The position numbers and the translations under genes were made by a program. The notes under the pieces are model-generated. The model did no database searches. It was not told the origin of the DNA and saw only the letters and a program-made list of their open reading frames with translations. A DNA stretch of 64,000 nucleotides from Clytia hemisphaerica (lineage: Eukaryota; Cnidaria; Hydrozoa; Leptothecata; Clytiidae): assembly GCA_902728285.1 (NCBI GenBank), contig CACVBU010001235.1, positions 426,082-490,081 on the forward strand, given 5' to 3'. Shown one piece after another: positions 13,441 to 43,440 of this stretch (positions within the stretch are counted from its first letter, which is position 1; each line of letters opens with the position of its first letter).

Positions 13441-13476
13441 AAATAAACTATTACTTACTTACTTACTTACTTATTT
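13441..13476 (+). repeat. LINE 3' tail with (ACTT)n
   Basis: 'gaaataaactatt' followed by five ACTT units closes the ORF1 unit. Short tandem tails are common at LINE 3' ends. Confidence 0.7.
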
Positions 13477-14883: not shown

Positions 14884-14892
14884 CATATTTTT

Positions 14893-16062: not shown

Positions 16063-16149
16063 TACTAAACTACAAAATTTATTTACGCAGACTGGATGCA
16101 AATTGTGTTTTTCAAAATTTTGTGATTTTGTTTTAAGTGCACAGTAGGA

Positions 16150-17589: not shown

Positions 17590-17738
17590 TTAATTGTTTG
17601 ATGTCATAGAAACAGTGCTACAATGCTAAAGAGAAGTATACTTTGAGCTTCTCGTGAGGGGGGGGGTTGGAGGAGCTCTCAGGCTTGTTTTAAATAATTT
17701 TAAATCAAGTTATCAAATGTTTCACATTTTGTACATTA

Positions 17739-18122: not shown

Positions 18123-18574
18123 TATTCAACATTTTTAGTCTACTCTGTTTCAGTACATCTCTTACATCTGTTAACCCACTTATTAAAGCTATCTAGCTAA
18201 GCTCTATTGGCTGACCTTCCAGCCTCGGCTGGTTTATTTTCTTTAAAAGAGGGCTGTTACACTTGTAAATTTTTTAATCATAAAGACTTGATTAAAACAT
18301 TTCAGAAATTTAGAAATAAATCAATGTAATGTAGCCACGCCTTTACAATCAATTTAATACCCTCATTTTTCGTGTTTTTTCGACTTTTTTGATAAGTAAT
18401 TTTTTTAGCATTTAGACCATAACTTTTGATCCAGTTGACTAAATTTAACAAATGACCCCTTAAAATTTAAGTTTATCCTTCCTTTTTCCAATGCAAAAGG
18501 ATCGATACTTTCAAAGTTCATAGAACTCGAGAAAATTCGCTTCAAAGAGGGGGACTTTTTTCTGGGACACCCGG

Positions 18575-20040
18575 TAGTAGTAAATCCAAAAAAATAGAGC
18601 AAATGGCTTGCAAATAGCATAAATTTAGACATTTGATCGCGAAGAAAAATCCATAGATGTTCCTTTACCACGAAAGACTATTGACAGACACGACTACTTT
18701 TATCGATAAAGACACCAAATCTGTAACTTCAGAAAGTAGTAGTAAATCCACAAAAATTGACCAAATGGCTTGCAAATAGCATAAATTTAGACATTTGATT
18801 GCAAAGAAACAATCATAACATGTTCCTTTCTCAGGAAAGACTCAAAATAGATACGGCGACTTTCATCGGAAAATACGCTGAATCTGCAATTGACCTATAG
18901 TTTCAGTGAAATTAGTGGTGAATCCACGAAAATAGACGAAATGGCTTGCAAATAGCATAAATTTAGAAATTTGATTGCAAAGAAACAATCCTAAGATATT
19001 CTATTGTCACTAAAGACTCGTAACATATACGGCAACTTTCGTCAGAAAAGATAAAAATCTGTAATTGACCTATAGCTTCAGTGAAAGTAGTAGTCAATCC
19101 ACAAAAATAGAGCAACGGGCTTGCATATAGCATAAATTTAGAAATTTGATCGCAAAGAAACAATCCCTAGATGTTCCTTTGCAACGAAACACTCATAACA
19201 GAAAAGGCGACTTTTATCGATAAAGACGCCAAATCTGTATTTGAATTATAGCTTTAGTGAAAGTAGTGGTGAATCCACAAAAATAGAGCAAAGGGCTTGC
19301 AAATAGCATAAATTTAGACATTTGATTACAAAGAAACAATCCTAAGATGTTCCATGGTCACTAAAGACTCATAACAGATATGGCGACTTTCATCGGAAAA
19401 GACACTGAATCTGTAATTGACCTATTGCTTCAGTGAAATTAGCGGTACAGAAATAGTCTATATAGTTTGGAAAGAGCATAAATTTAGACATTTGATTGCA
19501 AAGAAACAATCATAACATGTTCCTTTCTCAGGAAAGACTCAAAATAGATACGGCGACTTTCATCGGAAAAGACGCTGAATCTGCAATTGACCTATTGCTT
19601 CAGTGAAATTAGTGGTGAATCCACGAAAATAGACGAAATGGCTTGCAGATAGCATAAATTTAAAAATTTGATCGCGAAGAAACAATCCCTAGATGTTCCT
19701 TTGCCACGAAACACTCATAAAAGATACGGCGACTTTTATCGATAAAGACGCCAAATCTGTATTTGACCTATAGCTTCAGTGAAAGTAGTGGTGAATCTAC
19801 AAACATAGAGCAAATGGTTTGCAAATAGCATAAATTTAGACATTTGATTACAAAGAAACAATCCTAAGATGTTCCATGGTCACTAAAGACTCATTACAGA
19901 TATGGCGACTTTCATCGGAAAAGACGCTGAATCTGTAATTGACCTATTGCTTCAGTGAAATTAGTGGTGAATCCACGAAAATAGACGAAATGGCTTGCAA
20001 ATAGCATAAATTTAGAAATTTGATTACAAGAAACAATTCC
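18575..20040 (+). repeat. 176-bp satellite, diverged monomeric flank (left)
   Basis: Head-to-tail ~176-bp monomers ('cttgcaaatagcataaattt' followed by 'tgttccttt' and 'gcgacttttatcg') that differ clearly from one another and show no fixed multi-monomer order. This is the expected older edge of a homogenised array. Confidence 0.9.
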
Positions 20041-23000
20041 TAGATGTTCCTTTGCCACAAAACACCCATAACAGATGCGGCGACTTTTATCGATAAAGAC
20101 AACAAATCTGTAATTGAGCTACAGCTTCAATGAAAGCAGTCATGAGTGCACAAAAATAAACCAAATGGCTTGCTAATACCAGAAATTTAGAAATTTTATT
20201 GAGAAGAAACAATCCTAAGATGTTCCTTTGCCACAAAACACTCATAACAGATGCGGTGACTTTTATCGATAAAGACGCCAAATCTGTATTTCATCTGTAG
20301 CTTCAGTGAAAGTAGTGGTGAATCCACAAACATAGAGCAAAGGGTTTGCAAATAGCATAAATTTAAACATTTGATTACAAAGAAACAATCCTAAGATGTT
20401 CCATTGGCACTAAAAACTCATAACAGATATGGCAACTTCCATCGGAAAAGACGCTGAATCTGTAATTGACCTATTGCTTCAGTGAAATTAGTGGTGAATC
20501 CACGAAAAACGAAATGGCTTGCAAATAGCATAAATTTAGAAATTTGATTGCAAGAAACAATTCCTAGATGTTCCTTTGCCACAAAACACTCATAACAGAT
20601 GCGGTGACTTTTATCGATAAGACGCCAAATCTGTATTTGATCTGTAGCTTCAGTGAAAGTAGTGGTGAATCCACAAAAATAGAGCAAAGGGTTTGCAAAT
20701 AGCATAAATTTAGACATTTGATTACAAAGAAACAATCCTAAAATGTTCCTTTACCATATAAGACTATTAACGAATACGGCGACTTTTATCGATAAAGACA
20801 CCAAATCTGTAATTGAGCTACAGCTTCAATGAAAGCAGTCATGAGTGCACAAAAATAAACCAAATGGCTTGCTAATACCAGAAATTTAGAAATTTGATTG
20901 AGAAGAAACAATCCTAAGATGTTCCTTTGCCACAAAACACTCATAACAGATGCGGTGACTTTTATCGATAAAGACGCCAAATCTGTATTTGATCTGTAGC
21001 TTCAGTGAAAGTAGTGGTGAATCCACAAACATAGAGCAAAGGGTTTGCAAATAGCATAGATTTAAACATTTGATTACAAAGAAACAATCCTAAGATGTTC
21101 CATTGGCACTAAAACTCATAACAGATATGGCAACTTTCATCGGAAAAGACGCTGAATCTGTAATTGACCTATTGCTTCAGTGAAATTAGTGGTGAATCCA
21201 CGAAAATAGACGAAATGGCTTGCAAATAGCATAAATTTAGAAATTTGATTGCAAGAAACAATTCCTAGATGTTCCTTTGCCACAAAACACTCATAACAGA
21301 TGCGGTGACTTTTATCGATAAAGACGCCAAATCTGTATTTGATCTGTAGCTTCAGTGGAAGTAGTGGTGAATCCACAAAAATAGAGCAAAGGGTTTGCAA
21401 ATAGCATAAATTTAGACATTTGATTACAAAGAAACAATCCTAAGATGTTCCTTTACCATATAAGAGTAATAACGAATACGGCGACTTTTATCGATAAAGA
21501 CAACAAATCTGTAATTGAGCTACAGCTTCAATGAAAGCAGTCATGAGTGCACAAAAATAAACCAAATGGCTTGCTAATACCAGAAATTTAGAAATTTGAT
21601 TGAGAAGAAACAATCCTAAGATGTTCCTTTGCCACAAAACACTCATAACAGATGCGGTGACTTTTATCGATAAAGACGCCAAATCTGTATTTCATCTGTA
21701 GCTTCAGTGAAAGTAGTGGTGAATCCACAAACATAGAGCAAAGGGTTTGCAAATAGCATAAATTTAAACATTTGATTACAAAGAAACAATCCTAAGATGT
21801 TCCATTGGCACTAAAAACTGATAACAGATATGGCAACTTTCATCGGAAAAGACGCTGAATCTGTAATTGACCTATTGCTTCAGTGAAATTAGTGGTGAAT
21901 CCACGAAAATAGACGAAATGGCTTGCAAATAGCATAAATTTAGAAATTTGATTGCAAGAAACAATTCCTAGATGTTCCTTTGCCACAAAACACTCATAAC
22001 AGATGCGGTGACTTTTATCGATAAAGACGCCAAATCTGTATTTGATCTGTAGCTTCAGTGAAAGTAGTGGTGAATCCACAAAAATAGAGCAAAGGGTTTG
22101 CAAATAGCATAAATTTAGATATTTGATTACAAAGAAACAATCCTAAGATGTTCCTTTACCATATAAGACTATTAACGAATACGGCGACTTTTATCGATAA
22201 AGACACCAAATCTGTAATTGAGCTACAGCTTCAATGAAAGCAGTCATGAGTGCACAAAAATAAACCAAATGGCTTGCTAATACCAGAAATTTAGAAATTT
22301 GATTGAGAAGAAACAATCCTAAGATGTTCCTTTGCCACAAAACACTCATAACAGATGCGGTGACTTTTATCGATAAAGACGCCAAATCTGTATTTGATCT
22401 GTAGCTTCAGTGAAAGTAGTGGTGAATCCACAAAAATAGAGCAAAGGGTTTGCAAATAGCATAAATTTAGACATTTGATTACAAAGAAACAATCCTAAGA
22501 TGTTCCTTTACCATATAAGACTATTAACGAATACGGCGACTTTTATCGATAAAGACACCAAATCTGTAATTGAGCTACAGCTTCAATGAAAGCAGTCATG
22601 AGTGCACAAAAATAAACCAATGGCTTGCTAATACCAGAAATTTAGAAATTTGATTGAGAAGAAACAATCCTAAGATGTTCCTTTGCCACAAAACACTCAT
22701 AACAGATGCGGTGACTTTTATCGATAAAGACGCCAAATCTGTATTTGATCTGTAGCTTCAGTGAAAGTAGTGGTGAATCCACAAACATAGAGCAAAGGGT
22801 TTGCAAATAGCATAGATTTAAACATTTGATTACAAAGAAACAATCCTAAGATGTTCCATTGGCACTAAAAACTCATAACAGATATGGCAACTTTCATCGG
22901 AAAAGACGCTGAATCTGTAATTGACCTATTGCTTCAGTGAAATTAGTGGTGAATCCACGAAAATAGACGAAATGGCTTGCAAATAGCATAAATTTAGAAA

Positions 23001-26000
23001 TTTGATTGCAAGAAACAATTCCTAGATGTTCCTTTGCCACAAAACACTCATAACAGATGCGGTGACTTTTATCGATAAAGACGCCAAATCTGTATTTGAT
23101 CTGTAGCTTCAGTGAAAGTAGTGGTGAATCCACAAAAATAGAGCAAAGGGTTTGCAAATAGCATAAATTTAGACATTTGATTACAAAGAAACAATCCTAA
23201 AATGTTCCTTTACCATATAAGACTATTAACGAATACGGCGACTTTTATCGATAAAGACACCAAATCTGTAATTGAGCTACAGCTTCAATGAAAGCAGTCA
23301 TGAGTGCACAAAAATAAACCAAATGGCTTGCTAATACCAGAAATTTAGAAATTTGATTGAGAAGAAACAATCCTAAGATGTTCCTTTGCCACAAAACACT
23401 CATAACAGATGCGGTGACTTTTATCGATAAAGACGCCAAATCTGTATTTGATCTGTAGCTTCAGTGAAAGTAGTGGTGAATCCACAAACATAGAGCAAAG
23501 GGTTTGCAAATAGCATAGATTTAAACATTTGATTACAAAGAAACAATCCTAAGATGTTCCATTGGCACTAAAAACTCATAACAGATATGGCAACTTTCAT
23601 CGGAAAAGACGCTGAATCTGTAATTGACCTATTGCTTCAGTGAAATTAGTGGTGAATCCACGAAAATAGACGAAATGGCTTGCAAATAGCATAAATTTAG
23701 AAATTTGATTGCAAGAAACAATTCCTAGATGTTCCTTTGCCACAAAACACTCATAACAGATGCGGTGACTTTTATCGATAAAGACGCCAAATCTGTATTT
23801 GATCTGTAGCTTCAGTGAAAGTAGTGGTGAATCCACAAAAATAGAGCAAAGGGTTTGCAAATAGCATAAATTTAGACATTTGATTACAAAGAAACAATCC
23901 TAAGATGTTCTTTTACCATATAAGACTATTAACGAATACGGCGACTTTTATCGATAAAGACACCAAATCTGTAATTGAGCTACAGCTTCAATGAAAGCAG
24001 TCATGAGTGCACAAAAATAAACCAAATGGCTTGCTAATACCAGAAATTTAGAAATTTGATTGAGAAGAAACAATCCTAAGATGTTCCTTTGCCACAAAAC
24101 ACTCATAACAGATGCGGTGACTTTTATCGATAAAGACGCCAAATCTGTATTTCATCTGTAGCTTCAGTGAAAGTAGTGGTGAATCCACAAACATAGAGCA
24201 AAGGGTTTGCAAATAGCATAAATTTAAACATTTGATTACAAAGAAACAATCCTAAGATGTTCCATTGGCACTAAAAACTCATAACAGATATGGCAACTTT
24301 CATCGGAAAAGACGCTGAATCTGTAATTGACCTATTGCTTCAGTGAAATTAGTGGTGAATCCACGAAAAACGAATTGGCTTGCAAATAGCATAAATTTAG
24401 AAATTTGATTGCAAGAAACAATTCCTAGATGTTCCTTTGCCACAAAACACTCATAACAGATGCGGTGACTTTTATCGATAAAGACGCCAAATCTGTATTT
24501 GATCTGTAGCTTCAGTGAAAGTAGTGGTGAATCCACAAAAATAGAGCAAAGGGTTTGCAAATAGCATAAATTTAGACATTTGATTACAAAGAAACGATCC
24601 TAAAATGTTCCTTTACCATATAAGACTATTAACGAATACGGCGACTTTTATCGATAAAGACACCAAATCTGTAATTGAGCTACAGCTTCAATGAAAGCAG
24701 TCATGAGTGCACAAAAATAAACCAAATGGCTTGCTAATACCAGAAATTTAGAAATTTGATTGAGAAGAAACAATCCTAAGATGTTCCTTTGCCACAAAAC
24801 ACTCATAACAGATGCGGTGACTTTTATCGATAAAGACGCCAAATCTGTATTTGATCTGTAGCTTCAGTGAAAGTAGTGGTGAATCCACAAAAATAGAGCA
24901 AAGGGTTTGCAAATAGCATAAATTTAGACATTTGATTACAAAGAAACAATCCTAAGATGTTCCTTTACCATATAAGACTATTAACGAATACGGCGACTTT
25001 TATCGATAAAGACACCAAATCTGTAATTGAGCTACAGCTTCAATGAAAGCAGTCATGAGTGCACAAAAATAAACCAAATGGCTTGCTAATACCAGAAATT
25101 TAGAAATTTGATTGAGAAGAAACAATCCTAAGATGTTCCTTTGCCACAAAACACTCATAACAGATGCGGTGACTTTTATCGATAAAGACGCCAAATCTGT
25201 ATTTGATCTGTAGCTTCAGTGAAAGTAGTGGTGAATCCACAAACATAGAGCAAAGGGTTTGCAAATAGCATAGATTTAAACATTTGATTACAAAGAAACA
25301 ATCTTAAGATGTTCCATTGGCACTAAAAACTCATAACAGATATGGCAACTTTCATCGGAAAAGACGCTGAATCTGTAATTGACCTATTGCTTCAGTGAAA
25401 TTAGTGGTGAATCCACGAAAATAGACGAAATGGCTTGCAAATAGCATAAATTTAGACATTTGATTGCAAGAAACAATTCCTAGATGTTCCTTTGCCACAA
25501 AACACTCATAACAGATGCGGTGACTTTTATCGATAAAGACGCCAAATCTGTATTTGATCTGTAGCTTCAGTGAAAGTAGTGGTGAATCCACAAAAATAGA
25601 GCAAAGGGTTTGCAAATAGCATAAATTTAGACATTTGATTACAAAGAAACAATCCTAAGATGTTCTTTTACCATATAAGACTATTAACGAATACGGCGAC
25701 TTTTATCGATAAAGACACCAAATCTGTAATTGAGCTACAGCTTCAATGAAAGCAGTCATGAGTGCACAAAAATAAACCAAATGGCTTGCTAATACCAGAA
25801 ATTTAGAAATTTGATTGAGAAGAAACAATCCTAAGATGTTCCTTTGCCACAAAACACTCATAACAGATGCGGTGACTTTTATCGATAAAGACGCCAAATC
25901 TGTATTTGATATGTAGCTTCAGTGAAAGTAGTGGTGAATCCACAAACATAGAGCAAAGGGTTTGCAAATAGCATAGATTTAAACATTTGATTACAAAGAA

Positions 26001-28976
26001 ACAATCCTAAGATGTTCCATTGGCACTAAAAACTCATAACAGATATGGCAACTTTCATCGGAAAAGACGCTGAATCTGTAATTGACCTATTGCTTCAGTG
26101 AAATTAGTGGTGAATCCACGAAAATAGACGAAATGGCTTGCAAATAGCATAAATTTAGAAATTTGATTGCAAGAAACAATTCCTAGATGTTCCTTTGCCA
26201 CAAAACACTCATAACAGATGCGGTGACTTTTATCGATAAAGACGCCAAATCTGTATTTGATCTGTAGCTTCAGTGAAAGTAGTGGTGAATCCACAAAAAT
26301 AGAGCAAAGGGTTTGCAAATAGCATAAATTTAGACATTTGATTACAAAGAAACAATCCTAAGATGTTCTTTTACCATATAAGACTATTAACGAATACGGC
26401 GACTTTTATCGATAAAGACACCAAATCTGTAATTGAGCTACAGCTTCAATGAAAGCAGTCATGAGTGCACAAAAATAAACCAAATGGCTTGCTAATACCA
26501 GAAATTTAGAAATTTGATTGAGAAGAAACAATCCTAAGATGTTCCTTTGCCACAAAACACTCATAACAGATGCGGTGACTTTTATCGATAAAGACGCCAA
26601 ATCTGTATTTCATCTGTAGCTTCAGTGAAAGTAGTGGTGAATCCACAAACATAGAGCAAAGGGTTTGCAAATAGCATAAATTTAAACATTTGATTACAAA
26701 GAAACAATCCTAACATGTTCCATTGGCACTAAAAACTCATAACAGATATGGCAACTTTCATCGGAAAAGACGCTGAATCTGTAATTGACCTATTGCTTCA
26801 CTGAAATTAGTGGTGAATCCACGAAAATAGACGAAATGGCTTGCAAATAGCATAAATTTAGAAATTTGATTGTTAGAAACAATTCCTAGATGTTCCTTTG
26901 CCACAAAACACTCATAACAGATGCGGTGACTTTTATCGATAAAGACGCCAAATCTGTATTTGATCTGTAGCTTCAGTGAAAGTAGTGGTGAATCCACAAA
27001 AATAGAGCAAAGGGTTTGCAAATAGCATAAATTTAGACATTTGATTACAAAAAACAATCCTAAGATGTTCCTTTACCATATAAGACTATTAACAATACGG
27101 CGACTTTTATCGATAAAGACACCAAATCTGTAATTGAGCTACAGCTTCAATGAAAGCAGTCATGAGTGCACAAAAATAAACCAAATGGCTTGCTAATACC
27201 AGAAATTTAGAAATTTGATTGAGAAGAAACAATCCTAAGATGTTCCTTTGCCACAAAACACTCATAACAGATGCGGTGACTTTTATCGATAAAGACGCCA
27301 AATCTGTATTTGATCTGTAGCTTCAGTGAAAGTAGTGGTGAATCCACAAACATAGAGCAAAGGGTTTGCAAATAGCATAGATTTAAACATTTGATTACAA
27401 AGAAACAATCCTAAGATGTTCCATTGGCACTAAAAACTCATAACAGATATGGCAACTTTCATCGGAAAAGACGCTGAATCTGTAATTGACCTATTGCTTC
27501 AGTGAAATTAGTGGTGAATCCACGAAAATAGACGAAATGGCTTGCAAATAGCATAAATTTAGAAATTTGATTGCAAGAAACAATTCCTAGATGTTCCTTT
27601 GCCACAAAACACTCATAACAGATGCGGTGACTTTTATCGATAAAGACGCCAAATCTGTATTTGATCTGTAGCTTCAGTGAAAGTAGTGGTGAATCCACAA
27701 AAATAGAGCAAAGGGTTTGCAAATAGCATAAATTTAGACATTTGATTACAAAGAAACAATCCTAAGATGTTCCTTTACCATATAAGACTATTAACGAATA
27801 CGGCGACTTTTATCGATAAAGACACCAAATCTGTAATTGAGCTACAGCTTCAATGAAAGCAGTCATGAGTGCACAAAAATAAACCAAATGGCTTGCTAAT
27901 ACCAGAAATTTAGAAATTTGATTGAGAAGAAACAATCCTAAGATGTTCCTTTGCCACAAAACACTCATAACAGATGCGGTGACTTTTATCGATAAAGACG
28001 CCAAATCTGTATTTGATCTGTAGCTTCAGTGAAAGTAGTGGTGAATCCACAAACATAGAGCAAAGGGTTTGCAAATAGCATAGATTTAAACATTTGATTA
28101 CAAAGAAACAATCCTAAGATGTTCCATTGGCACTAAAACTCATAACAGATATGGCAACTTTCATCGGAAAAGACGCTGAATCTGTAATTGACCTATTGCT
28201 TCAGTGAAATTAGTGGTGAATCCACGAAAATAGACGAAATGGCTTGCAAATAGCATAAATTTAGAAATTTGATTGCAAGAAACAATTCCTAGATGTTCCT
28301 TTGCCACAAAACACTCATAACAGATGCGGTGACTTTTATCGATAAAGACGCCAAATCTGTATTTGATCTGTAGCTTCAGTGAAAATAGTGGTGAATCCAC
28401 AAAAATAGAGCAAAGGGTTTGCAAATAGCATAAATTTAGACATTTGATTACAAAGAAACAATCCTAAGATGTTCCTTTACCATATAAGACTATTAACGAA
28501 TACGGCGACTTTTATCGATAAAGACACCAAATCTGTAATTGAGCTACAGCTTCAATGAAAGCAGTCATGAGTGCACAAAAATAAACCAAATGGCTTGCTA
28601 ATACCAGAAATTTAGAAATTTGATTGAGAAGAAACAATCCTAAGATGTTCCTTTGCCACAAAACACTCATAACAGATGCGGTGACTTTTATCGATAAAGA
28701 CGCCAAATCTGTATTTGATCTGTAGCTTCAGTGAAAGTAGTGGTGAATCCACAAAAATAGAGCAAAGGGTTTGCAAATAGCATAAATTTAGACATTTGAT
28801 TACAAAGAAACAATCCTAAGATGTTCCTTTACCATATCAGACTATTAACGAATACGGCGACTTTTATCGATAAAGACACCAAATCTGTAATGGAGCTACA
28901 GCTTCAATGAAAGCAGTCATGAGTGCACAAAAATAAACCAAATGGCTTGCTAATACCAGAAATTTAGAAATTTGAT
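20041..28976 (+). repeat. 176-bp satellite as 703-bp tetrameric higher-order repeat, block 1a
   Basis: Four distinguishable monomers recur in order. A has 'accatataagactattaacg' and 'gcagtcatgagtgcac'; B has 'aaacatagagc' and 'catagatttaaaca'; C has 'ccattggcactaaaa' and 'catcggaaaagacgctg'; D has 'caattcctag' and 'aaaaatagagc'. Equivalent positions in monomer A fall at 20087, 20786, 21488, 22191, 22543, 23245, 23948, 24648, 25000, 25703, 26406, 27107, 27810, 28512 and 28864, so steps are ~703 bp with three of 352 bp (A plus a B/D hybrid). Whole 703-bp units are nearly identical whereas monomers inside a unit are not, the definition of a higher-order repeat. The repeated 64-, 87- and 99-codon minus-strand frames are a by-product. 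Confidence 0.95.
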
Positions 28977-29663
28977 CTCAACGGTCGTAAGGGGCTCATT
29001 TTCAGTTTTTTCAAAACTGCATGTACTTCCACCTCATAAACATACCTATTTTTGGGCTTTTTTGGAGAAGCTTAATTTAGCCGTCATGAATGTGTCCTGT
29101 CAGATGTCCCATAATGCACCAAACTCGAGAAAATTTAGAAAATCCCTGAAAAATCCGCCATTTTGATGACGTCATTGACAGAAAAACTTGAATAAGTTCA
29201 GGTACAAAAAAGATTTCGAGCTCAAATTTCGACCAGAGACGTATATAAATAAAACAAATTAGGAAATTGGAAAACAAAATCGAAAAAATGCTTACGTCAG
29301 CAAAAATGGCTGAAAAACCATTTGTGCGAAAAAATGCTGACGTCATCAAAAAATCTAAACAATTTTGATTTAAAATGCTTTTAATTTTTAATTTGAATCT
29401 CTGGTAAAAATTTGAGCTGGAAATCTTTTTTCTACCTGAACTTATTCAAGTTTTTCTGTCAATGACGTCATCAAAATGGCGGATTTTTCAAGGATTTTCC
29501 CAATTTTTTCGAGTTTGGTGCATTATGGGACATCTGACAGGAAACATTCATGTCGTCGGCTAAATTAAGCTTCTCCAAAAAAGCTCTAAAATAGGTATGT
29601 TTATGAGGTGGAAGTACATGCAGTTTTGAAAAAACCGAAAATGAGCCCCTTACGACCGTTGAG
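28977..29663. mobile_element. 687-bp foldback element inserted in the satellite
   Basis: The arms start CTCAACGGTCGTAAGGGGCT and mirror each other for some 250-300 bp, so most of the element can fold. It interrupts monomer A between 'aaatttgat' and 'attgagaag'. This fits a 2-bp AT duplication, or no duplication if the termini are read as TCTCAAC. Taking out 689 bp restores a 703-bp unit spacing between 28864 and 30256. The open frames inside are arm artefacts. Confidence 0.85.
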
Positions 29664-31831
29664 ATTGAGAAGAAACAATCCTAAGATGTTCCTTTGCCAC
29701 AAAACACTCATAACAGATGCGGTGACTTTTATCGATAAAGACGCCAAATCTGTATTTGATCTGTAGCTTCAGTGAAAGTAGTGGTGAATCCACAAACATA
29801 GAGCAAAGGGTTTGCAAATAGCATAAATTTAAACATTTGATTACAAAGAAACAATCCTAAGATGTTCCATTGGCACTAAAAACTCATAACAGATATGGCA
29901 ACTTTCATCGGAAAAGACGCTGAATCTGTAATTGACCTATTGCTTCAGTGAAATTAGTGGTGAATCCACGAAAATAGACGAAATGGCTTGCAAATAGCAT
30001 AAATTTAGAAATTTGATTGCAAGAAACAATTCCTAGATGTTCCTTTGCCACAAAACACTCATAACAGATGCGGTGACTTTTATCGATAAAGACGCCAAAT
30101 CTGTATTTGATCTGTAGCTTCAGTGAAAGTAGTGGTGAATCCACAAAAATAGAGCAAAGGGTTTGCAAATAGCATAAATTTAGACATTTGATTACAAAGA
30201 AACAATCCTAAGATGTTCCTTTACCATATAAGACTATTAACGAATACGGCGACTTTTATCGATAAAGACACCAAATCTGTAATTGAGCTACAGCTTCAAT
30301 GAAAGCAGTCATGAGTGCACAAAAATAAACCAAATGGCTTGCTAATACCAGAAATTTAGAAATTTGATTGAGAAGAAACAATCCTAAGATGTTCCTTTGC
30401 CACAAAACACTCATAACAGATGCGGTGACTTTTATCGATAAAGACGCCAAATCTGTATTTCATCTGTAGCTTCAGTGAAAGTAGTGGTGAATCCACAAAC
30501 ATAGAGCAAAGGGTTTGCAAATAGCATAAATTTAAACATTTGATTACAAAGAAACAATCCTAAGATGTTCCATTGGCACTAAAAACTCATAACAGATATG
30601 GCATCTTTCATCGGAAAAGACGCTGAATCTGTAATTGACCTATTGCTTCAGTGAAATTAGTGGTGAATCCACGAAAATAGACGAAATGGCTTGCAAATAG
30701 CATAAATTTAGAAATTTGATTGCTAGAAACAATTCCTAGATGTTCCTTTGCCACAAAACACTCATAACAGATGCGGTGACTTTTATCGATAAAGACGCCA
30801 AATCTGTATTTGATCTGTAGCTTCAGTGAAAGTAGTGGTGAATCCACAAAATAGAGCAAAGGGTTTGCAAATAGCATAAATTTAGACATTTGATTACAAA
30901 GAAACAATCCTAAGATGTTCCTTTACCATATAAGACTATTAACGAATACGGCGACTTTTATCGATAAAGACACCAAATCTGTAATTGAGCTACAGCTTCA
31001 ATGAAAGCAGTCATGAGTGCACAAAATAAACCAAATGGCTTGCTAATACCAGAAATTTAGAATTTGATTGAGAAGAAACAATCCTAAGATGTTCCTTTGC
31101 CACAAAACACTCATAACAGATGCGGTGACTTTTATCGATAAAGACGCCAAATCTGTATTTGATCTGTAGCTTCAGTGAAAGTAGTGGTGAATCCACAAAC
31201 ATAGAGCAAAGGGTTTGCAAATAGCATAGATTTAAACATTTGATTACAAAGAAACAATCCTAAGATGTTCCATTGGCACTAAAAACTCATAACAGATATG
31301 GCAACTTTCATCGGAAAAGACGCTGAATCTGTAATTGACCTATTGCTTCAGTGAAATTAGTGGTGAATCCACGAAAATAGACGAAATGGCTTGCAAATAG
31401 CATAAATTTAGAAATTTGATTGCAAGAAACAATTCCTAGATGTTCCTTTGCCACAAAACACTCATAACAGATGCGGTGACTTTTATCGATAAAGACGCCA
31501 AATCTGTATTTGATCTGTAGCTTCAGTGAAAGTAGTGGTGAATCCACAAAAATAGAGCAAAGGTTTGCAAATAGCATAAATTTAGACATTTGATTACAAA
31601 GAAACAATCCTAAGATGTTCCTTTACCATATAAGACTATTAACGAATACGGCGACTTTTATCGATAAAGACACCAAATCTGTAATTGAACTACAGCTTCA
31701 ATGAAAGCAGTCATGAGTGCACAAAAATAAACCAAATGGCTTGCTAATACCAGAAATTTAGAAATTTGATTGAGAAGAAACAATCCTAAGATGTTCCTTT
31801 GCCACAAAACACTCATAACAGATGCGGTGAC
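29664..31831 (+). repeat. 703-bp higher-order satellite, block 1b
   Basis: The same A-B-C-D order resumes after the foldback element (A at 30256, about 30959 and 31660) and is cut by the next insertion inside 'gatgcggtgac'. Confidence 0.95.
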
Positions 31832-34317
31832 GCAAATTTTTTTTCCGTAGACGGGCGGAAATATCTTTAATGGTCGGAAATATCATAGCGCAATGGTCGG
31901 AAATATCATTTGATGGTCGGAAATATCTTTAGATGGTCGGAAATATCCCAAACAAAATTAAATTTGAAAATTTAATGGTCGGAAATATCATTTGATGGTC
32001 GGAAATATCATTTGATGGTCGGAAATATCATTTGATGGTCGGAAATATCATTTGATGGTCGGAAATATCATTTGATGGTCGGAAATATCTTTTGATGGTC
32101 GGAATTATCATTTGATGGTAGGAAATATCATTTGATGGTCGGAAATATCCAAAACTCTAAAAATTTGAAAATTTAATGGTCGGAAATATCCCGCGCTTTT
32201 AAAAATGCTTCATCAGCAAAAAAAATGTAAACAAAAATGGTAGCAAAGGTGGCGTTGTGTGGCCAACATGTTGTGTGTGCCAGACAAGCTTTTTAGAGAG
32301 AGAAAGTGGTATTGACCTTTTTATTCTAACACGACTCTTCGTTCTTTCTTGTCTTTTTTATATCCTTTCCTCCTCTGGCCCCCACTGTAAGGGTCATTTT
32401 TTGGCCAGATTTTTTCTGCATGCACTGCCAGCTGGATGCACTGTAAAGGTTCGATTTTGGAAGCCAAATTTTCCGCCGAACAGTCGTTTTCAGATCAAGT
32501 GCCCCAAGTGCCTCCCCCCCGGGTAAGGTCTAGAATGGGAGGATGTCCGGGTAGGGTTAGGACTAGCTTTAGGGTGATTTGAGAGTAGTGGGGGCTAGAG
32601 AGAGGAGGAAAGGATATAAAAAATACAAGAAATAAAGAAGAGTCGTGTTTGAATAAAGGGTCAATACCACTTTCTCTCCCTAAAAAGCTGTCTACGTCTT
32701 GTGTAAAAATACTGTGTAAAGAACTAAGAAACAGAACAGTTCTCAGATAGTGTCCCAAAAACTTAAAATAAAAAACTACTCTTGTCTGGCACACACAACA
32801 AGTTGGCCACACCACACCTATGGTTGTTCATTTGTAGCAAAAGTCAATCTTTTTCATTCAGTGAAATATTTTTACATTCAGTGAAATATTTTTACATTCA
32901 GTGAAATATTTTTACATTCAGTGAAATATTTTTGTGTTTAGTAGGAATGTTTTTACATTCAATGAAAAATAATTTTATTCAGTGGAAACATTTTTACATT
33001 CAGTGAAAAATTTTTGTATTTAGTGAAAAAAAATCACGTTCTGTTTTCCGCAGAATATTTTTATTTAGTGGAGAAAATATATGTTCAGTGAAAAAAAATT
33101 CATATTTAGTGACCACGTGACAGAACGCGCAGATTGGTAAGTATGGTCAGTATTTTATCCTCCTGCCAAGAAATACAGGTCGAAAATGCGGGTTAACACA
33201 TTCCACATCAGCCTTGGCAATATTGGGAAAATCCATGTGAATACTTCTCAAGGCATTTTGATAATCCTTCAAAAAATTAAACATTATATCAGCCTGGCCT
33301 TCTTCGGTACAAGTCCTTGCCCTCTCGACCAATGTTGCCAGGCTGCTAAAAAACTCTTGATAAGCCTCATCCAGATCTGCCATCTTGCTTTCCTGATCTG
33401 ATTTGTTTATGTTATTATTTTGCTGGCATCAGCATAAATAGTCATGGCCTCATATACTAAATTGGATTATCTAGGAGTAAAAGTTCCGTAAATTTTAGTC
33501 AAAACGACCACGGAAAATACAGGGCTGCTCATACGGGATATGAGAAGGTTTAATCAGCAGACCAGAATGAGCCAACCCCAAATTCAAAAACTGCAAAATT
33601 CACTAAAGTAAGTAAATAAATAACTCATTAAAAAATTTATTAAATTAAAAAAAAGTATTTCACTGAATAAAAAAAATAAATTCACTAAATAAAAAAAGAT
33701 TTCACTGAATCAAAAAAAATTCATTGAATAAAAAAGGATTTCACTAAATACAAAAAAGTTTCCACTAAATATAAAAAAGTTTCCACTAAATATAAAAAAG
33801 TTTCCACTAAATATAAAAAAGTTTCCACTAAATATGAAAAAGTTTCCACTAAATATGAAAAAAAACTTCTAAATGAAAAAGATTGACTTTTGCTACAAAT
33901 GAACAACCATACACACCACCTTTGCTACCATTTTTGTTTACATTTTTTTTGCTGATAAAGCATTTTTAAAAGCGTGGGATATTTCCGACCATTAAATTTT
34001 CAAATTTTTAGAGTTTTGGATATTTCCGACCATCAAATGATATTTCCGACCATCAAAAGATATTTCCGACCATCAAATGATATTTCCGACCGTTACGCTA
34101 TGATATGATACCATTTTTGTTTACATTTTTTTTGCTGATAAAGCATTTTTAAAAGCGTGGGATATTTCCGACCATTAAATTTTCAAATTTTCAGAGTTTG
34201 GGATATTTCCGACCATCAAAAGATATTTCCGACCATCAAATGATATTTCCAACCATTGCGCTATGATATTTCCGACCATTAAAGATATTTCCGCCCGTCT
34301 ACGGAAAAAAAATTTGC
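31832..34317. mobile_element. 2.5-kb Mutator-like foldback element with 9-bp target duplication
   Basis: The termini GCAAATTTTTTTTCCGTAGA and the inverted copy are flanked by TGCGGTGAC (31823-31831 and 34318-34326), satellite sequence duplicated on insertion. Both arms hold many 20-bp repeats of ATGGTCGGAAATATCATTTG. Inside them are further inverted layers: 32220-32390 against 32585-32825 plus 33905-33960, and an 'attcagtgaaatattttta' repeat run (32855-33110) against 'tttccactaaatataaaaaa' (33640-33880). The right arm has an internal duplication (about 33928-34018 and 34111-34207). No transposase is seen; a gene-like fragment sits in the unfolded centre. Confidence 0.88.
33147..33383 (-). CDS. 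78-aa gene-like fragment in the centre of the foldback element
   Basis: The frame has balanced, non-repetitive composition (charged helices, DEAYQEFFSSL near the start, a proline/arginine-rich end) unlike the A/T-rich arms around it. Its ATG sits in a good context (aagATGG). No domain was recognised. It lies at the element's axis, where Mutator-like elements often carry captured host sequence, so it may be an exon copied from elsewhere. It could equally be a chance frame. Confidence 0.3.
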   Translation of the reverse strand: MADLDEAYQEFFSSLATLVERARTCTEEGQADIMFNFLKDYQNALRSIHMDFPNIAKADVECVNPHFRPVFLGRRIKY

Positions 34318-36840
34318 TGCGGTGACTTTTAACGATAAAGACGCCATATACGCCTGTAATTGACCTATAGCTTAAGTGAAAGTAGTGGTGAATCTACCAA
34401 AATAGAGCAAAGAGCTTGCAAATAGCATAGATTTAAAAATTTGATCACGAAGAAACAACCCCTAGATGTTCCTTTGCCACGAAACACTCATAACAGATAC
34501 GGCGACTTTTATCGATAAAACGCCATATCTGTATTTGACCTATAGCTTCAGTGAAAGTAGTGGTGAATCCACAAAAATAGAGCAAAGGGCTTGCAAATAG
34601 CATAAATTTAGAAATTTGATTGCAAGAAACAATTCCTAGATGTTCCTTTGCCACAAAACACTCATAACAGATGCGGTGACTTTTATCGATAAAGACGCCA
34701 AATCTGTATTTGACCTATAGCTTCAGTGAAACTAGTGGTGAATCCACAAAAATAGAGCAAAGGGCTTGCAAATAGCATAAATTTAGATATTTGATTACAG
34801 AGAAACAATCCTCAGATGTTCCATTGTCACTAAAGACTCATAACGGATGCGGCGACTTTCATCAGAAAAGACGTCAAATCTGTAATTGACCTATAGCTTC
34901 AGTAAAATAGTGGTGAATCCACAAAAATAGAGCAAAGGGCTTGCAAATAGCATAAATATGAAACTTGATTGCAAAGAAACAATCATAACATGTTCCTTTC
35001 TCAGTAAAGACTCAAAATAGATAAGGCGACTTTCATCGGAAAATACGCTGAATCTGCAATTGACCTATAGTTTCAGTGAAATTAGTGGTGAATCCACGAA
35101 AATAGACGAAATGGCTTGCAAATAGCATAAATTTAGAAATTTGATTGCAAGAATCAATTCCTAGATGTTCCTTTGCCACGAAAGACTAATAACAGGTACG
35201 GCAACTTTTATCGATAAAGACGCCAAATCTGTATTTGACCTATAGCTTCAGTGAAAGTAGTGGTGAATCCACAAAAATAGAGCAAAGGGCTTGCAAATAG
35301 CATAAATTTAGATATTTGATTACAGAGAAACAATCTTCAGATGTTCCATTGTCACCAAAGACTCATAACGGATGCAGCGACTTTCATCAGAAAAGACGTC
35401 AAATCTGTAATTGACCTATAGCTTCAGTGCAAGTAGTGGTGAATCCACAAAAATAGAGCAAAGGGCTTGCAAATAGCATAAATATGAAATTTGATTGAAA
35501 GGAAACAATCAAAACATGTTCCTTTCTCAGGAAAGACTCAAAATAGATACGGCGACTTTCATCGGAAAAGACGCTGAATCTGCAATTGACCTATAGTTTC
35601 AGTGAAATTAGTGGTGAATCCACGAAAATAGACGAAATGGCTTGCAAATAGCATAAATTTAGAAATTTGATTGCAAGAAACAATTCCTAGATGTTCCTTT
35701 GCCACGAAAGACTAATAACAGGTACGGCAACTTTTATCGATAAAGACGCCAAATCTGTATTTGACCTATAGCTTCAGTGAAACTAGTGGTGAATCCACAA
35801 AAATAGAGCAAAGGGCTTGCAAATAGCATAAATTTAGATATTTGATTACAGATAAACAATCCTCAGATGTTCCATTGTCACTAAAGACTCATAACGGATG
35901 CGGCGACTTTCATCAGAAAAGACGTCAAATCTGTAATTGACCTATAGCTTCAGTACAAGTAGTGGTGAATCCACAAAAATAGAGCAAAGGGCTTGCAAAT
36001 AGCATAAATATGAAAATTGATTGCAAATAGCATAAATTTAGACATTTGATTGCAAGGAAACAATCATGACATGTTCCTTTCTCAGGAAAGACTCAAAATA
36101 GATACGGCGACTTTCATCGGAAAAGACGCTGAATCTGCAATTGACCTATAGTTTCAGTGAAATTAGTGGTGAATCCACGAAAATAGACGAAATGGCTTGC
36201 AAATAGCATAAATTTATAAATTTGATTGCTAGAAACAATTCCTAGATGTTCCTTTGCCACGAAAGACTAATAACAGGTACGGCAACTTTTATCGATAAAG
36301 ACGCCAAATCTGTATTTGACCTATAGCTTCAGTGAAAGTAGTGGTGAATCCACAAAAATAGAGCAAAGGGCTTGCAAATAGCATAAATTTAGATATTTGA
36401 TTACAGAGAAACAATCCTCAGATGTTCCATTGTCACTAAAGACTCATAACGGATGCGGCGACTTTCATCAGAAAAGACGTCAAATCTGTAATTGACCTAT
36501 AGCTTCAGTACAAGTAGTGGTGAATCCACAAAATAGAGCAAAGGGCTTGCAAATAGCATAAATATAAAATTGATTGCAAATAGCATAAATTTAGACATTT
36601 GATTGCAAGGAAACAATCATAACATGTTCCTTTCTCAGGAAAGACTCAAAATAGATACGGCGACTTTCATCGGAAAGGACGCTGAATCTGCAATTGACCT
36701 ATTGCTTCAGTGAAATTAGTGGTGAATCCACGAAAATAGACGAAATGGCTTGCTAATACCAGAAATTTAGAAATTTGATTGAGAAGAAACAATCCTAAGA
36801 TGTTCCTTTGCCACGAAACACTCATAACAGATACGGCGAC
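34318..36840 (+). repeat. 176-bp satellite, diverged monomers (middle)
   Basis: Monomers carry variants absent from the higher-order blocks ('ctcagatgttccattgtcac', 'gatgcggcgactttcatcag', 'cataacatgttcctttctca'). A local repeat of about 700 bp also appears here (similar segments near 35130, 35680 and 36230), suggesting a second, older higher-order family. The first monomer continues the target interrupted at 31831. Confidence 0.9.
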
Positions 36841-39800
36841 TTTTATCGATAAAGACACCAAATCTGTAATTGAGCTACAGCTTCAATGAAAGCAGTCATG
36901 AGTGCACAAAAATAAACCAAATGGCTTGCTAATACCAGAAATTTAGAAATTTGATTGAGAAGAAACAATCCTAAGATGTTCCTTTGCCACAAAACACTCA
37001 TAACAGATGCGGTGACTTTTATCGATAAAGACGCCAAATCTGTATTTGATCTGTAGCTTCAGTGAAAGTAGTGGTGAATCCACAAACATAGAGCAAAGGG
37101 TTTGCAAATAGCATAGATTTAAACATTTGATTACAAAGAAACAATCCTAAGATGTTCCATTGGCACTAAAAACTCATAACAGATATGGCAACTTTCATCG
37201 GAAAAGACGCTGAATCTGTAATTGACCTATTGCTTCAGTGAAATTAGTGGTGAATCCACGAAAATAGACGAAATGGCTTGCAAATAGCATAAATTTAGAA
37301 ATTTGATTGCAAGAAACAATTCCTAGATGTTCCTTTGCCACAAAACACTCATAACAGATGCGGTGACTTTTATCGATAAAGACGCCAAATCTGTATTTGA
37401 TCTGTAGCTTCAGTGAAAGTAGTGGTGAATCCACAAAAATAGAGCAAAGGGTTTGCAAATAGCATAAATTTAGACATTTGATTACAAAGAAACAATCCTA
37501 AGATGTTCCTTTACCATATAAGAGTAATAACGAATACGGCGACTTTTATCGATAAAGACAACAAATCTGTAATTGAGCTACAGCTTCAATGAAAGCAGTC
37601 ATGAGTGCACAAAAATAAACCAAATGGCTTGCTAATACCAGAAATTTAGAAATTTGATTGAGAAGAAACAATCCTAAGATGTTCCTTTGCCACAAAACAC
37701 TCATAACAGATGCGGTGACTTTTATCGATAAAGACGCCAAATCTGTATTTCATCTGTAGCTTCAGTGAAAGTAGTGGTGAATCCACAAACATAGAGCAAA
37801 GGGTTTGCAAATAGCATAAATTTAACATTTGATTACAAAGAAACAATCCTAAGATGTTCCATTGGCACTAAAAACTGATAACAGATATGGCAACTTTCAT
37901 CGGAAAAGACGCTGAATCTGTAATTGACCTATTGCTTCAGTGAAATTAGTGGTGAATCCACGAAAATAGACGAAATGGCTTGCAAATAGCATAAATTTAG
38001 AAATTTGATTGCAAGAAACAATTCCTAGATGTTCCTTTGCCACAAAACACTCATAACAGATGCGGTGACTTTTATCGATAAAGACGCCAAATCTGTATTT
38101 GATCTGTAGCTTCAGTGAAAGTAGTGGTGAATCCACAAAAATAGAGCAAAGGGTTTGCAAATAGCATAAATTTAGACATTTGATTACAAAGAAACAATCC
38201 TAAGATGTTCCTTTACCATATAAGACTATTAACGAATACGGCGACTTTTATCGATAAAGACACCAAATCTGTAATTGAGCTACAGCTTCAATGAAAGCAG
38301 TCATGAGTGCACAAAAATAAACCAAATGGCTTGCTAATACCAGAAATTTAGAAATTTGATTGAGAAGAAACAATCCTAAGATGTTCCTTTGCCACAAAAC
38401 ACTCATAACAGATGCGGTGACTTTTATCGATAAAGACGCCAAATCTGTATTTGATCTGTAGCTTCAGTGAAAGTAGTGGTGAATCCACAAAAATAGAGCA
38501 AAGGGTTTGCAAATAGCATAAATTTAGACATTTGATTACAAAGAAACAATCCTAAGATGTTCCTTTACCATATAAGACTATTAACGAATACGGCGACTTT
38601 TATCGATAAAGACACCAAATCTGTAATTGAGCTACAGCTTCAATGAAAGCAGTCATGAGTGCACAAAAATAAACCAAATGGCTTGCTAATACCAGAAATT
38701 TAGAAATTTGATTGAGAAGAAACAATCCTAAGATGTTCCTTTGCCACAAAACACTCATAACAGATGCGGTGACTTTTATCGATAAAGACGCCAAATCTGT
38801 ATTTGATCTGTAGCTTCAGTGAAAGTAGTGGTGAATCCACAAACATAGAGCAAAGGGTTTGCAAATAGCATAGATTTAAACATTTGATTACAAAGAAACA
38901 ATCCTAAGATGTTCCATTGGCACTAAAAACTCATAACAGATATGGCAACTTTCATCGGAAAAGACGCTGAATCTGTAATTGACCTATTGCTTCAGTGAAA
39001 TTAGTGGTGAATCCACGAAAATAGACGAAATGGCTTGCAAATAGCATAAATTTAGAAATTTGATTGCAAGAAACAATTCCTAGATGTTCCTTTGCCACAA
39101 AACACTCATAACAGATGCGGTGACTTTTATCGATAAAGACGCCAAATCTGTATTTGATCTGTAGCTTCAGTGAAAGTAGTGGTGAATCCACAAAAATAGA
39201 GCAAAGGGTTTGCAAATAGCATAAATTTAGACATTTGATTACAAAGAAACAATCCTAAATGTTCCTTTACCATATAAGACTATTAACGAATACGGCGACT
39301 TTTATCGATAAAGACACCAAATCTGTAATTGAGCTACAGCTTCAATGAAAGCAGTCATGAGTGCACAAAAATAAACCAAATGGCTTGCTAATACCAGAAA
39401 TTTAGAAATTTGATTGAGAAGAAACAATCCTAAGATGTTCCTTTGCCACAAAACACTCATAACAGATGCGGTGACTTTTATCGATAAAGACGCCAAATCT
39501 GTATTTGATCTGTAGCTTCAGTGAAAGTAGTGGTGAATCCACAAAAATAGAGCAAAGGGTTTGCAAATAGCATAAATTTAGACATTTGATTACAAAGAAA
39601 CAATCCTAAGATGTTCTTTACCATATAAGACTATTAACGAATACGGCGACTTTTATCGATAAAGACACCAAATCTGTAATTGAGCTACAGCTTCAATGAA
39701 AGCAGTCATGAGTGCACAAAAATAAACCAAATGGCTTGCTAATACCAGAAATTTAGAAATTTGATTGAGAAGAAACAATCCTAAGATGTTCCTTTGCCAC

Positions 39801-40720
39801 AAAACACTCATAACAGATGCGGTGACTTTTATCGATAAAGACGCCAAATCTGTATTTCATCTGTAGCTTCAGTGAAAGTAGTGGTGAATCCACAAACATA
39901 GAGCAAAGGGTTTGCAAATAGCATAAATTTAAACATTTGATTACAAAGAAACAATCCTAAGATGTTCCATTGGCACTAAAAACTCATAACAGATATGGCA
40001 ACTTTCATCGGAAAAGACGCTGAATCTGTAATTGACCTATTGCTTCAGTGAAATTAGTGGTGAATCCACGAAAAAACGAATTGGCTTGCAAATAGCATAA
40101 ATTTAGAAATTTGATTGCAAGAAAACAATTCCTAGATGTTCCTTTGCCACAAAACACTCATAACAGATGCGGTGACTTTTATCGATAAAGACGCCAAATC
40201 TGTATTTGATCTGTAGCTTCAGTGAAAGTAGTGGTGAATCCACAAAAATAGAGCAAAGGGTTTGCAAATAGCATAAATTTAGACATTTGATTACAAAGAA
40301 ACGATCCTAAATGTTCCTTTACCATATAAGACTATTAACGAATACGGCGACTTTTATCGATAAAGACACCAAATCTGTAATTGAGCTACAGCTTCAATGA
40401 AAGCAGTCATGAGTGCACAAAAATAAACCAAATGGCTTGCTAATACCAGAAATTTAGAAATTTGATTGAGAAGAAACAATCCTAAGATGTTCCTTTGCCA
40501 CAAAACACTCATAACAGATGCGGTGACTTTTATCGATAAAGACGCCAAATCTGTATTTGATCTGTAGCTTCAGTGAAAGTAGTGGTGAATCCACAAAAAT
40601 AGAGCAAAGGGTTTGCAAATAGCATAAATTTAGACATTTGATTACAAAGAAACAATCCTAAGATGTTCCATTGGCACTAAAAACTCATAACAGATATGGC
40701 AACTTTCATCGGAAAAGACG
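36841..40720 (+). repeat. 703-bp higher-order satellite, block 2
   Basis: Monomer A positions 36843, 37546, 38248, 38600, 39302, 39653 and 40354 give steps of 703, 702, 352, 702, 351 and 701 bp. Rare variants match block 1 in order, so this is a duplicate of about 20786-24900 (see findings). Confidence 0.95.
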
Positions 40721-43440
40721 CTGAATCTGTAATTGACCTATTGCTTCAGTGAAATTCGTGGTGAATCCACGAAAATAGACGAAATGGCTTGCAAATAGCA
40801 TAAATTTAGAAATTTGATTGAAGAAACAATCCTAGATGTTCCTTTGCCACGAAAGACTAGTAACAGGTACGGCAACTTTTATCGATAAAGACGCCAAATC
40901 TGTAATTGAGCTATAGCTTCAATGAAAGATGGTGAAACAAAATAGACCAAATGGCTTGCAGATTGCATAAATTTAGACATTTGATTGCAAAGAAACAATC
41001 CTTAGATGTTCTATTGTCACTAAAGACTCGTAACGGATCCGGCGACTTTTATCAAAAAAGACGCCAAATCTGTAATTGACCTATAGCTTCGGTGAAATTA
41101 GTGGTGAATCAACAAAAGTAGCAAATGGCTTGCAAATAGCATAAATTTAGAAATTTGATCGCGAAGAAACAATCCTAGATGTTCCTTTGCTACGAAACAC
41201 TCATAACAAATACGGCGACTTTTATCGATAAAGATGCCAAATCTATAATTGACCTTTAGCTTCAGTGAAAATAGTGGTGAATCCACAAAAATAGAGCAAA
41301 GGGCTTGCAAGTAGCAGAAATTTAGAATTTGATTGAAAAAAAAACCTAAGATGTTCCTTTACCATATAAGACTAATACGGATACGGCGACTTTTATCAAT
41401 AAAGACACCAAATCTGTAATTGAGCTACAGCTTCAATGAAAGCAGTCATGAGTGCACAAAAATAAACCAAATGGCTTGCTAATACCAGTAATTTAGAAAT
41501 TTGATTGAGAAGAAACAATCCTAAGATGTTCCTTTGCCACTAAACACTCATAACAGATGCGGTGACTTTTATCGATAAAGACGCCAAATCTGTATTTGAT
41601 CTGTAGCTTCAGTGAAAGTAGTGGTGAATCCACAAGCATAGAGCAAAGGGTTTGCAAATAGCATAAATTTAAACATTTGATTACAAAGAAACGAACCTAA
41701 GATGTTCCATTGGCACTAAAAACTCATAACAGATATGGCAACTTTCATCGGAAAAGACGCTGAATCTGTAATTGACCTATTGCTTCAGTGAAATTAGTGG
41801 TGAATTCACGAAAATAGACGAAATGGCTTGCAAATAGCATAAACTTAGAAATTTGATTGCAAGAAACAATTCCTAGATGTTCCTTTGCCACGAAAGACTA
41901 ATAACAGGTACGGCAACTTTTATCGATAAAGACGCCAATCTGTATTTGACCTATAGCTTCAGTGAAAGTAGTGGTGAATCCACAAAATAGAGCAAAGGGC
42001 TTGCAAATAGCATAAATTTAGATATTTGATTACAGAGAAACAATCCTCAGATGTTCCATTGTCACTAAAGACTCATAACGGATACGGCGACTTTCATCAG
42101 AAAAGACGTCAAATCTGTAATTGACCTATAGCTTCAGTAAAGTAGTGGTCAATCCACGAAAATAGAGCAAAGGGCTTGCAAATAGCATAAATTTGAATTT
42201 GATTGCAAGGAAACAATCATAACATGTTCCTTTCTCTGGAAAGACTCAAAATAGATACGGCGACTTTCATCGGAAAGACGCTGAATCTGTATTGACCTAT
42301 TGCTTCAGTGAAATTAGTGGTGAACTCACGAAAATAGACGAAATGGCTGCAAATAGCGTAGATTTAAAAATTTGATCGCGAAGAAACAATCCCTAGATGT
42401 TCCTTTGCCACGAAACACTCATAACAGATACGGCGACTTTTATCGATAAGGACGCCAAATCTGTATTTGACCTATAGCTTCAGTGAAAGTAGTGGTGAAT
42501 CCACAAACAAAGAGCAAAGGGTTTGTAAATAGCATAAATTTAGACATTTGATTACAAAGAAACAATCCTAAGATGTTCCATTGGCACTAAAGACTCATAA
42601 CAGATATGGCGACTTTCATCGGAAAAGACGCTGAATGCGTAATTGACCTATTGCTTCAGTGAAATAGTGGTGAATCTACGAAAATAGACGAAATGGCTTG
42701 CAAATAGCATAAATTTAGAAATTTGATTGCAAGAAACAATCCTAGATGTTCCTTTGCCCGAAAGACTAATAAACAGGTACGGCAACTTTTATCGATAAAG
42801 ACGCCAAATCTGTAATTGAGCTACAGCTTCAATGAAGCAGTCATGACGCGCACAAAAATAGACCAAATGGCTTGCAGATAGCATGAATTTAGACATTTGA
42901 TTGCAAGAAACAATCCTTAGATGTTCTATTGTCACTAAAGACTCGTAACGGATCCGGGGACTTTTATCAAAAAAGACGCCAAATCTGTAATTGACCTATA
43001 GCTTCGGTGAAAGTAGTGGTGAAATCCACGAAAAATAGGCAAAGGGCTTGCCAAATAGCATAAATTTAAGAATTGATTGCAAAGAACAATCCTAAGATAT
43101 CCATTGTCACGAAAGACTCGTAACAGATACGGCGGACTTTTATCAGAAAAGACGCCAAATCTGTAATTGACCTATAGCTTCACTAGAAGTAGTGGTGAAT
43201 CCACGAAAATAGGCGAAAGGGCTTGCAAATAGAATAAATTTAGAAATTTGATTGAGAAGAAACTATCCTAAGATAATCCATTGTCACGAAAGACTCGTAA
43301 CAGATACGGCGACTTTTATCGGAAAAGACGCCAAATCTGTAATTGACCTATAGCTTCAGTGAAAGTAGTGGTGAATCTACCAAAATAGAGCAAAGGGCTT
43401 GCAAATAGCATAAATTTAGAAATTTTGATTGCAAGAAACT
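40721..43440 (+). repeat. 176-bp satellite, diverged monomers (right edge)
   Basis: Monomers become increasingly different and carry many one-base gaps and insertions towards 43440, where the satellite ends in 'gattgcaagaaactatt'. Confidence 0.9.

Follow-up and report, generated by a model that had tools for sequence, protein, structure and literature searches.

A locus-specific higher-order satellite array of a dispersed ~176-bp repeat family in Clytia hemisphaerica

Introduction

The closest described counterparts of the locus analysed here are satellites organised as higher-order repeats (HORs). In primate alpha satellite (171 bp), diverged monomers of near-nucleosomal length are co-amplified as near-identical units, and these are bordered by diverged edges. 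Among insects, the available text of PMC8122249 describes dimeric and trimeric HORs for the 211-bp satellite of Chrysolina carnifex and dispersed single repeats for Tribolium TCAST2, and it places such satellites pericentrically. Dyad symmetries have been discussed for some centromeres (available part of PMC9070824), and macro-dyads in Tribolium span tens of kilobases according to the available part of PMC13081366.

Here we describe a satellite array in Clytia hemisphaerica. The window, that is, the whole 64,000-bp stretch of DNA that was analysed, corresponds to positions 426082-490081 of contig C850, and the assembly searched comprises 417,433,876 bp in 951 contigs. The array shares with alpha satellite the near-nucleosomal monomer, the amplification of diverged monomers as near-identical units and the diverged edges. 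In contrast to alpha satellite, it lacks a CENP-B-box-like site, spans only about 22 kb and is nearly confined to one locus, and the likeness drawn here is one of architecture. The insect HORs are similar in their dimers and trimers and in their dispersed single repeats (PMC8122249, available text), but whereas those satellites are pericentric, the Clytia array lies on unplaced contigs and its conserved block has 478 matches in the genome. Judged from its sequence, the array belongs to HOR satellite DNA as a structural class.

Results

Four monomer types form a 703-bp unit

Tandem repeats with a period of about 176 bp were found at 18732-31831 and, in several rows, at 34320-43439, and the net satellite in the array amounts to 21,761 bp. 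The satellite features of the window are as follows.

246..363, strand +: isolated diverged satellite fragment, 86% over 118 bp
1672..1787, strand +: apparent continuation of the 246..363 fragment past about 1.3 kb of other sequence
10767..10832, strand +: severed leftmost satellite piece of about 66 bp; the monomer resumes at about 18573
18573..20169, strand +: left diverged edge with chimera D (19995) at its end; its 9 full monomers average 89.4% identity to the nearest core type
20170..28975, strand +: core 1, 703-bp HOR 1-2-3-4 with 352-bp 1-4 variants at 22274, 24731 and 28595, delimited by order and identity tests
29665..31831, strand +: core 1, continued past a 689-bp insert
34318..36925, strand +: interior diverged block with chimera D (36750) at its end; its 14 full monomers average 88.9% identity to the nearest core type
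36926..40788, strand +: core 2, probable block copy of about 20869-24730, with 1-4 variants at 38331 and 39385
40789..43442, strand +: right diverged edge, matching contig C488 in monomer order; its 15 full monomers average 90.5%

The two outlying fragments together make up about 1.4 monomers. A second tandem repeat with a period of about 176 bp (about 3.7 copies) lies at 2634-3283, and similarity to the main satellite was not detected. Further tandem arrays occupy 60655-62275 (period 299 bp, 97% matches) and 62370-63465 (86 bp, 89%).

The array was decomposed into 126 full monomers, and four partial pieces were dropped. Clustering and diagnostic columns defined types 1, 2, 3 and 4, with 24, 22, 18 (plus one variant) and 23 members, along with the edge types A, B, D, G, H and I. 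For types 1 and 3, identity is 94.3%, and eight columns distinguish them, one of these with a single exception; the remaining type pairs are 80-82% identical, and identity within types is 97.7-99.3%. In the autocorrelation of core 1, the top lags were 176 and 703. The initial annotation had proposed four ~176-bp monomers in fixed order, and this was borne out in the three core segments, with the edges and the interior block left out: all 80 adjacent steps followed the order 1-2-3-4-1 (75) or skipped from 1 to 4 (5), as compared with a maximum of 48 in 10,000 shuffles. The near-identical ~703-bp units that it had described are likewise present. Seventeen complete units of 699-703 bp had a mean identity of 98.98% (minimum 98.0%), as against 80-94% between the monomers within one unit. 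Linked variants and the 1-4 dimers hint weakly at a second-order repeat of about 2.46 kb, with roughly two cycles.

The proposed division into homogenised cores and decayed edges also holds, with core monomers 99.4% identical to the nearest core consensus as compared with 89.4% on the left edge and 90.5% on the right. The interval given for the array, 20041-40720, needs revision. The repeat is real, but the interval includes two inserts (28976-29664 and 31832-34317) and a diverged stretch at 34416-36925 that consists of edge-type, non-HOR monomers mostly in a three-step order, and satellite also occurs further to the left. Within the interior block, the monomers at 34766-36749 follow the order G/I-A-H with a period of 525-555 bp.

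A monomer tree was built from 121 of the 126 monomers after five insert-hit monomers were dropped. Four groups were recovered, as had been predicted of the monomer phylogeny, and types 1 and 4 formed exact clades. The type 2 clade included one edge monomer, and type 3 was less clean, its best clade holding only 15 of 19 members. The closeness of types 1 and 3, compared with the 80-82% of the other pairs, makes the unit look like a pair of dimers with closely related first members, and the tetramer would then have grown from the dimers 1-2 and 3-4.

Among the window's own monomers, no windows were conserved beyond chance (permutation fractions 0.13, 0.84 and 0.42). A weak helical-phase signal of AA/TT/TA at 10.35 bp was the second strongest of 59 harmonics and reached a nominal, uncorrected p <0.05 for 5 of the 8 monomer consensuses. 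When one 703-bp unit was folded as DNA, z was -5.4 (20 shuffles), a value set aside because repeats pair with each other. No homologue was found for a 100-aa ORF within the repeat.

Chimeric monomers and a probable block copy

The 3' base characteristic of type 3 was carried by all five type-1 monomers that precede a type-4 monomer, as compared with 1 of the 19 that precede type 2. All six of these type-1 monomers have eight type-1 sites upstream and one type-3 site downstream. They fit 1-to-3 chimeras that would each have deleted 352 bp, the 3' evidence being a single site. Such a pattern is expected of an exchange between two 94%-identical monomers. A second chimera, D, precedes both cores and is type 3 up to monomer position ~83-87 and type 4 beyond it; it is clean at 19995 and noisy at 36750.

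Core 2 is probably a block copy of part of core 1 (~20869-24730), as suggested by the order of related units. Its units at 36926, 37629, 38683 and 39736 are nearest to the core-1 units at 20869, 21571, 22625 (tied with 27190) and 24031, with the order kept, and three of these four pairs have in common variants that occur in no other of the 17 units. Alignment of core 2 as a whole block gave 95.3% at 20869 and 95.1% at 23328 and did not single out the source.

Mobile-element-like inserts in and beside the array

Three inserts resemble mobile elements.

10833..18572, no strand assigned: segment of ~7.7 kb with inverted terminal repeats of ~220 bp (86%) and TA on both sides; it splits the leftmost monomer
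28976..29664, no strand assigned: 689-bp fold-back element, inserted at an AT dinucleotide of a type-1 monomer; its arms are 94.0% identical over 267 columns
31832..34317, no strand assigned: 2,486-bp element with terminal inverted repeats containing ~20-bp repeats and a 9-bp target duplication, TGCGGTGAC

The 7.7-kb segment may be a single element or several nested ones. An ORF inside it (12310-12777) gave a sub-threshold PHD-finger match. At the 689-bp element, the 29 bp before and the 147 bp after are both 100% type 1 and are contiguous in that type. The 2,486-bp element has no ORF of at least 120 aa. To its left, 91 bp are 100% type 1, and to its right, 98 bp are only about 86-88% identical to the best types. 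The homogenised core thus stops exactly at the left end of the element (31832).

That the family spreads as a tandem part of a transposable element, and not by recombination in place, would account for the isolated short copies and for the presence of three mobile-element-like inserts in or at the array. The inserts break monomers and do not carry the repeat, however, and we consider this mode of spread very unlikely.

A probable second version of the locus on contig C488

A second contig, C488 (99,367 bp), matches both flanks of the array: the left at 98.13%, with 51 mismatches and 78 gap positions in 6,913 columns, and the right at 98.41%, with 17 mismatches and 80 gap positions in 6,108 columns. 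Its array extends over about 51.34-75.93 kb. The monomer order at the right end, h-g-b-4-1-2-H-G-A-B-2, is that of the window, and the left half has other monomer combinations than the window. The core contains eight complete 1-2-3-4 units and no 1-4 dimer. In positions 44001-82000 of C488, the 689-bp and 2,486-bp inserts had no match longer than 150 bp among the matches listed, and the leftmost monomer is uninterrupted where the window has the 7.7-kb segment. C488 has interruptions of its own at 51705-52600 and at about 62491-63834.

For all 25 units of the window and C488, the nearest neighbour was a unit on the same contig, and a search for a fixed difference between the units of the two contigs found none. 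Substitution divergence was 0.68% among units of the window, 1.14% among those of C488 and 1.28% between the two sets; between the flanks it was 0.75% on the left and 0.28% on the right. C488 is probably the other haplotype, or allele, of the window locus, correctly assembled, and it could instead be a recent duplication. The comparison shows signs of recent turnover, in agreement with the initial view of a recently active array. A third contig, C932, terminates within a further copy of the right edge and carries ~0.6 kb of right flank. It is 89% identical to the window and 90% to C488 and may be a separate copy rather than the window locus.

A neighbouring gene starts 3 kb to the right of the array.

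46490..49650, strand -: protein-coding gene, 93-97% identical to a C. hemisphaerica UniRef protein, in two exon-like stretches; the frame breaks once, at 48406

Its ORF at 46487-48412 (strand -) is 97% identical to the UniRef protein over all 641 residues, and the gene has no Pfam hit. The copy on C488 is frame-broken elsewhere, so the break at 48406 in the window may be a sequence error. On the other side of the array, the ORF at 4470-5675 has five relatives at 42-56% identity; two of these are named, at 56% and 51%, and both belong to C. hemisphaerica. At 57404-58521, two overlapping minus-strand ORFs, which by eye resemble reverse-transcriptase fragments, had no Pfam hit.

The differences between the contigs and the block copy could largely be assembly artefacts, in the form of collapsed or mis-joined repeats. 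The differing frame breaks in the neighbouring gene suggest base errors, and at 6 of the 17 contigs with arrays of this family the array lies within 5% of the contig end (expected 1.7, binomial p 0.005; KS test p 0.14). However, the 1-2-3-4 HOR is present on two contigs with 17 and 8 complete units, the right-edge order is common to both, and the inserts serve as unique anchors. We therefore give an artefactual origin little credence.

The core variant is nearly confined to one locus and has diverged kin

A 22-base word from the core monomer, with at most two mismatches, had 181 + 8 matches in the whole assembly (189), and its reversed control had none. Of these, 188 could be placed: 95 in the window (94 in the array and one at 262), 85 on C488 and 8 at the end of C932. 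With 180 of 189 on the window and the C488 stretch, the core variant appears nearly confined to the window/C488 locus and one related contig end. An exact-match search with two words (one against viral_contigs, one against genome_contigs) returned no match.

Related arrays were sought with three ~700-bp queries, for which 37 of 57, 36 of 70 and 35 of 64 candidates were scored. Among the scored candidates, diverged kin arrays were found on C412, C832, C431, C339/C38, C566, C717, C202 and C8, further ones on C197, C564, C775, C101, C760 and C899, and shorter fragments on C597, C712, C786, C864, C193, C250 and C75. The arrays represent about 14 further loci, or about 15 with the window locus, in a count that takes apparent allelic groups once and C932 with the window locus and that may include further alleles. 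C339 and C38 look like another allelic pair: their arrays measure 12.0 and 5.7 kb, and the two match at 97.0% over 8,505 columns. C899 and C101 hold only a few monomers, and satellite fragments also occur singly. On C412, a separate 129-bp tandem array of about 17 copies (L010:6020-8166) lies about 1.7 kb from the kin array.

Monomer length is similar across the kin. Within an imposed period range of 170-180, tandem-repeat consensuses of 173-176 bp were obtained for 12 kin stretches, C488 and C932; within an imposed range of 165-185, the later loci gave 175-176 bp at four of five, and C775 gave none. Without the filter, rows with periods near 176 or 352 predominate, and other periods also occur, for example 112 on C202 and 309-343 on C832 and C717. 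The best-rotation identity of the kin to type 3 was 58-78%, compared with 53-57% for six shuffled controls. By this measure, C8 (58%) and C566 (60.5%) scarcely exceed the chance level; other kin and the E-values of the genome search link them to the family.

A conserved block coincides with a dyad

When ten families were compared, the best 42 columns (77-118) had a mean pairwise identity of 0.849, as compared with 0.645 elsewhere; the maximum for a 42-column block in 5,000 permutations was 0.838. The block is an imperfect dyad of ~41 bp. Of 18 monomer consensuses, several of which are near-copies of each other, 13 have their best dyad in this block. In 10 of these 13, none of 40 shuffles reached that dyad, and the counts for the others were 2 (type 1), 7 (C202) and 1 (C8). 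In types 2 and 4 and in C339, C38 and C566, the best dyad lies outside the block. At the twelve outer dyad pairs, which were chosen from the consensus, 96 of 120 cells were paired, compared with 19-39 when the positions were slid. Compensatory changes were absent among the 120 cells, and the left arm drifts, unlike the nearly invariant right arm.

A 33-base word from the block, with at most three mismatches, had 228 + 250 = 478 matches in the whole assembly, and its reversed control had none. Among the matches listed were 100 places, all on contigs already named above. The similar monomer length across kin that are only 58-78% identical, and the coincidence of the block with the dyad, suggest constraint and hence a possible function; the block might serve as a protein-binding site, or it might be an ancestral inverted repeat. 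As in the centromeric dyads of PMC9070824 and PMC13081366 (available parts), dyad symmetry here occurs in repeat DNA, but in Clytia it is one imperfect ~41-bp dyad per monomer, present at most but not all loci, lacking compensatory change and recognised from sequence alone.

Does the family mark centromeres?

The array had been likened to alpha-satellite-like centromeric DNA. The likeness stands for the architecture, an HOR with a near-nucleosomal monomer, but not for a centromeric identity: the variant is locus-specific, the array is ~22 kb and a gene lies 3 kb away. A CENP-B box is not required for centromeres. No CENP-B-box-like site with at most two mismatches was found within a monomer, and the consensus matched 63 times in the window where 73 matches were expected by chance. 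Identification of a centromere by resemblance was not adopted, in view of the missing CENP-B box, the low abundance in the assembly and the locus-specific variant.

Each chromosome's centromere might nevertheless have its own local 176-bp variant, with the window HOR as the core of one chromosome. The near-nucleosomal monomer, the HOR, the rapid turnover and the conserved dyad block are consistent with this, and the number of array loci (about 15) fits one array per chromosome if compared with 2n=30, given for one Clytiidae species in the available text of PMC9112765. High abundance and long arrays are usual, though not universal, for centromeric satellites; two contigs, C932 and C564, end inside arrays, so the arrays may be longer than assembled and the family may be under-represented in the assembly. 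Against this stand the small size of the array and its neighbouring gene, the low abundance of the dyad block in the assembly, the loci with few monomers or single fragments, and the absence of a CENP-B box. On balance, we regard local centromeric variants of this kind as unlikely and a centromere function of the 176-bp family as improbable. Similarly doubtful is that the family is a sequence mark of Clytia centromeres. Each chromosome would then carry about one array, with a sequence and HOR unit of its own; a common monomer length and dyad block would unite the arrays, and they would be remodelled between the alleles of one individual.

Discussion

We favour the explanation, with a probability of roughly 0.7, that the array is a locus-specific member of a low-copy, genome-dispersed ~176-bp satellite family that is rebuilt by misaligned recombination. 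Misaligned exchange and conversion between near-identical monomers would expand, delete and homogenise units, and the same recombination would copy blocks of several units. Mobile elements would insert, and sequence out of register would decay. The HOR, the chimeric monomers, the block with shared private variants, the nearly confined variant, the kin arrays and the contrast between the arrays of two contigs whose flanks are ~98% identical can be seen directly in the sequence. We infer that the joints were made by unequal exchange and not by another copying process, and that selection acts on no function beyond some constraint on monomer length and one conserved block.

The Clytia genome paper is reportedly Leclere et al. 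2019. In the titles and abstract openings that were covered, with most subscription papers outside this scope, no Clytia satellite or centromere was described. Should the family turn out to be centromeric, it would open the centromere DNA of hydrozoans to study, and Clytia, an early-branching animal, would have a centromere system that is small, close to genes and resolved at the sequence level. The array is small, has unique flanks and comes with an apparent second allele, and the steps by which an HOR changes are directly readable in it. Chimeric deletion, block copy and element insertion can thus be compared between near-identical haplotypes.
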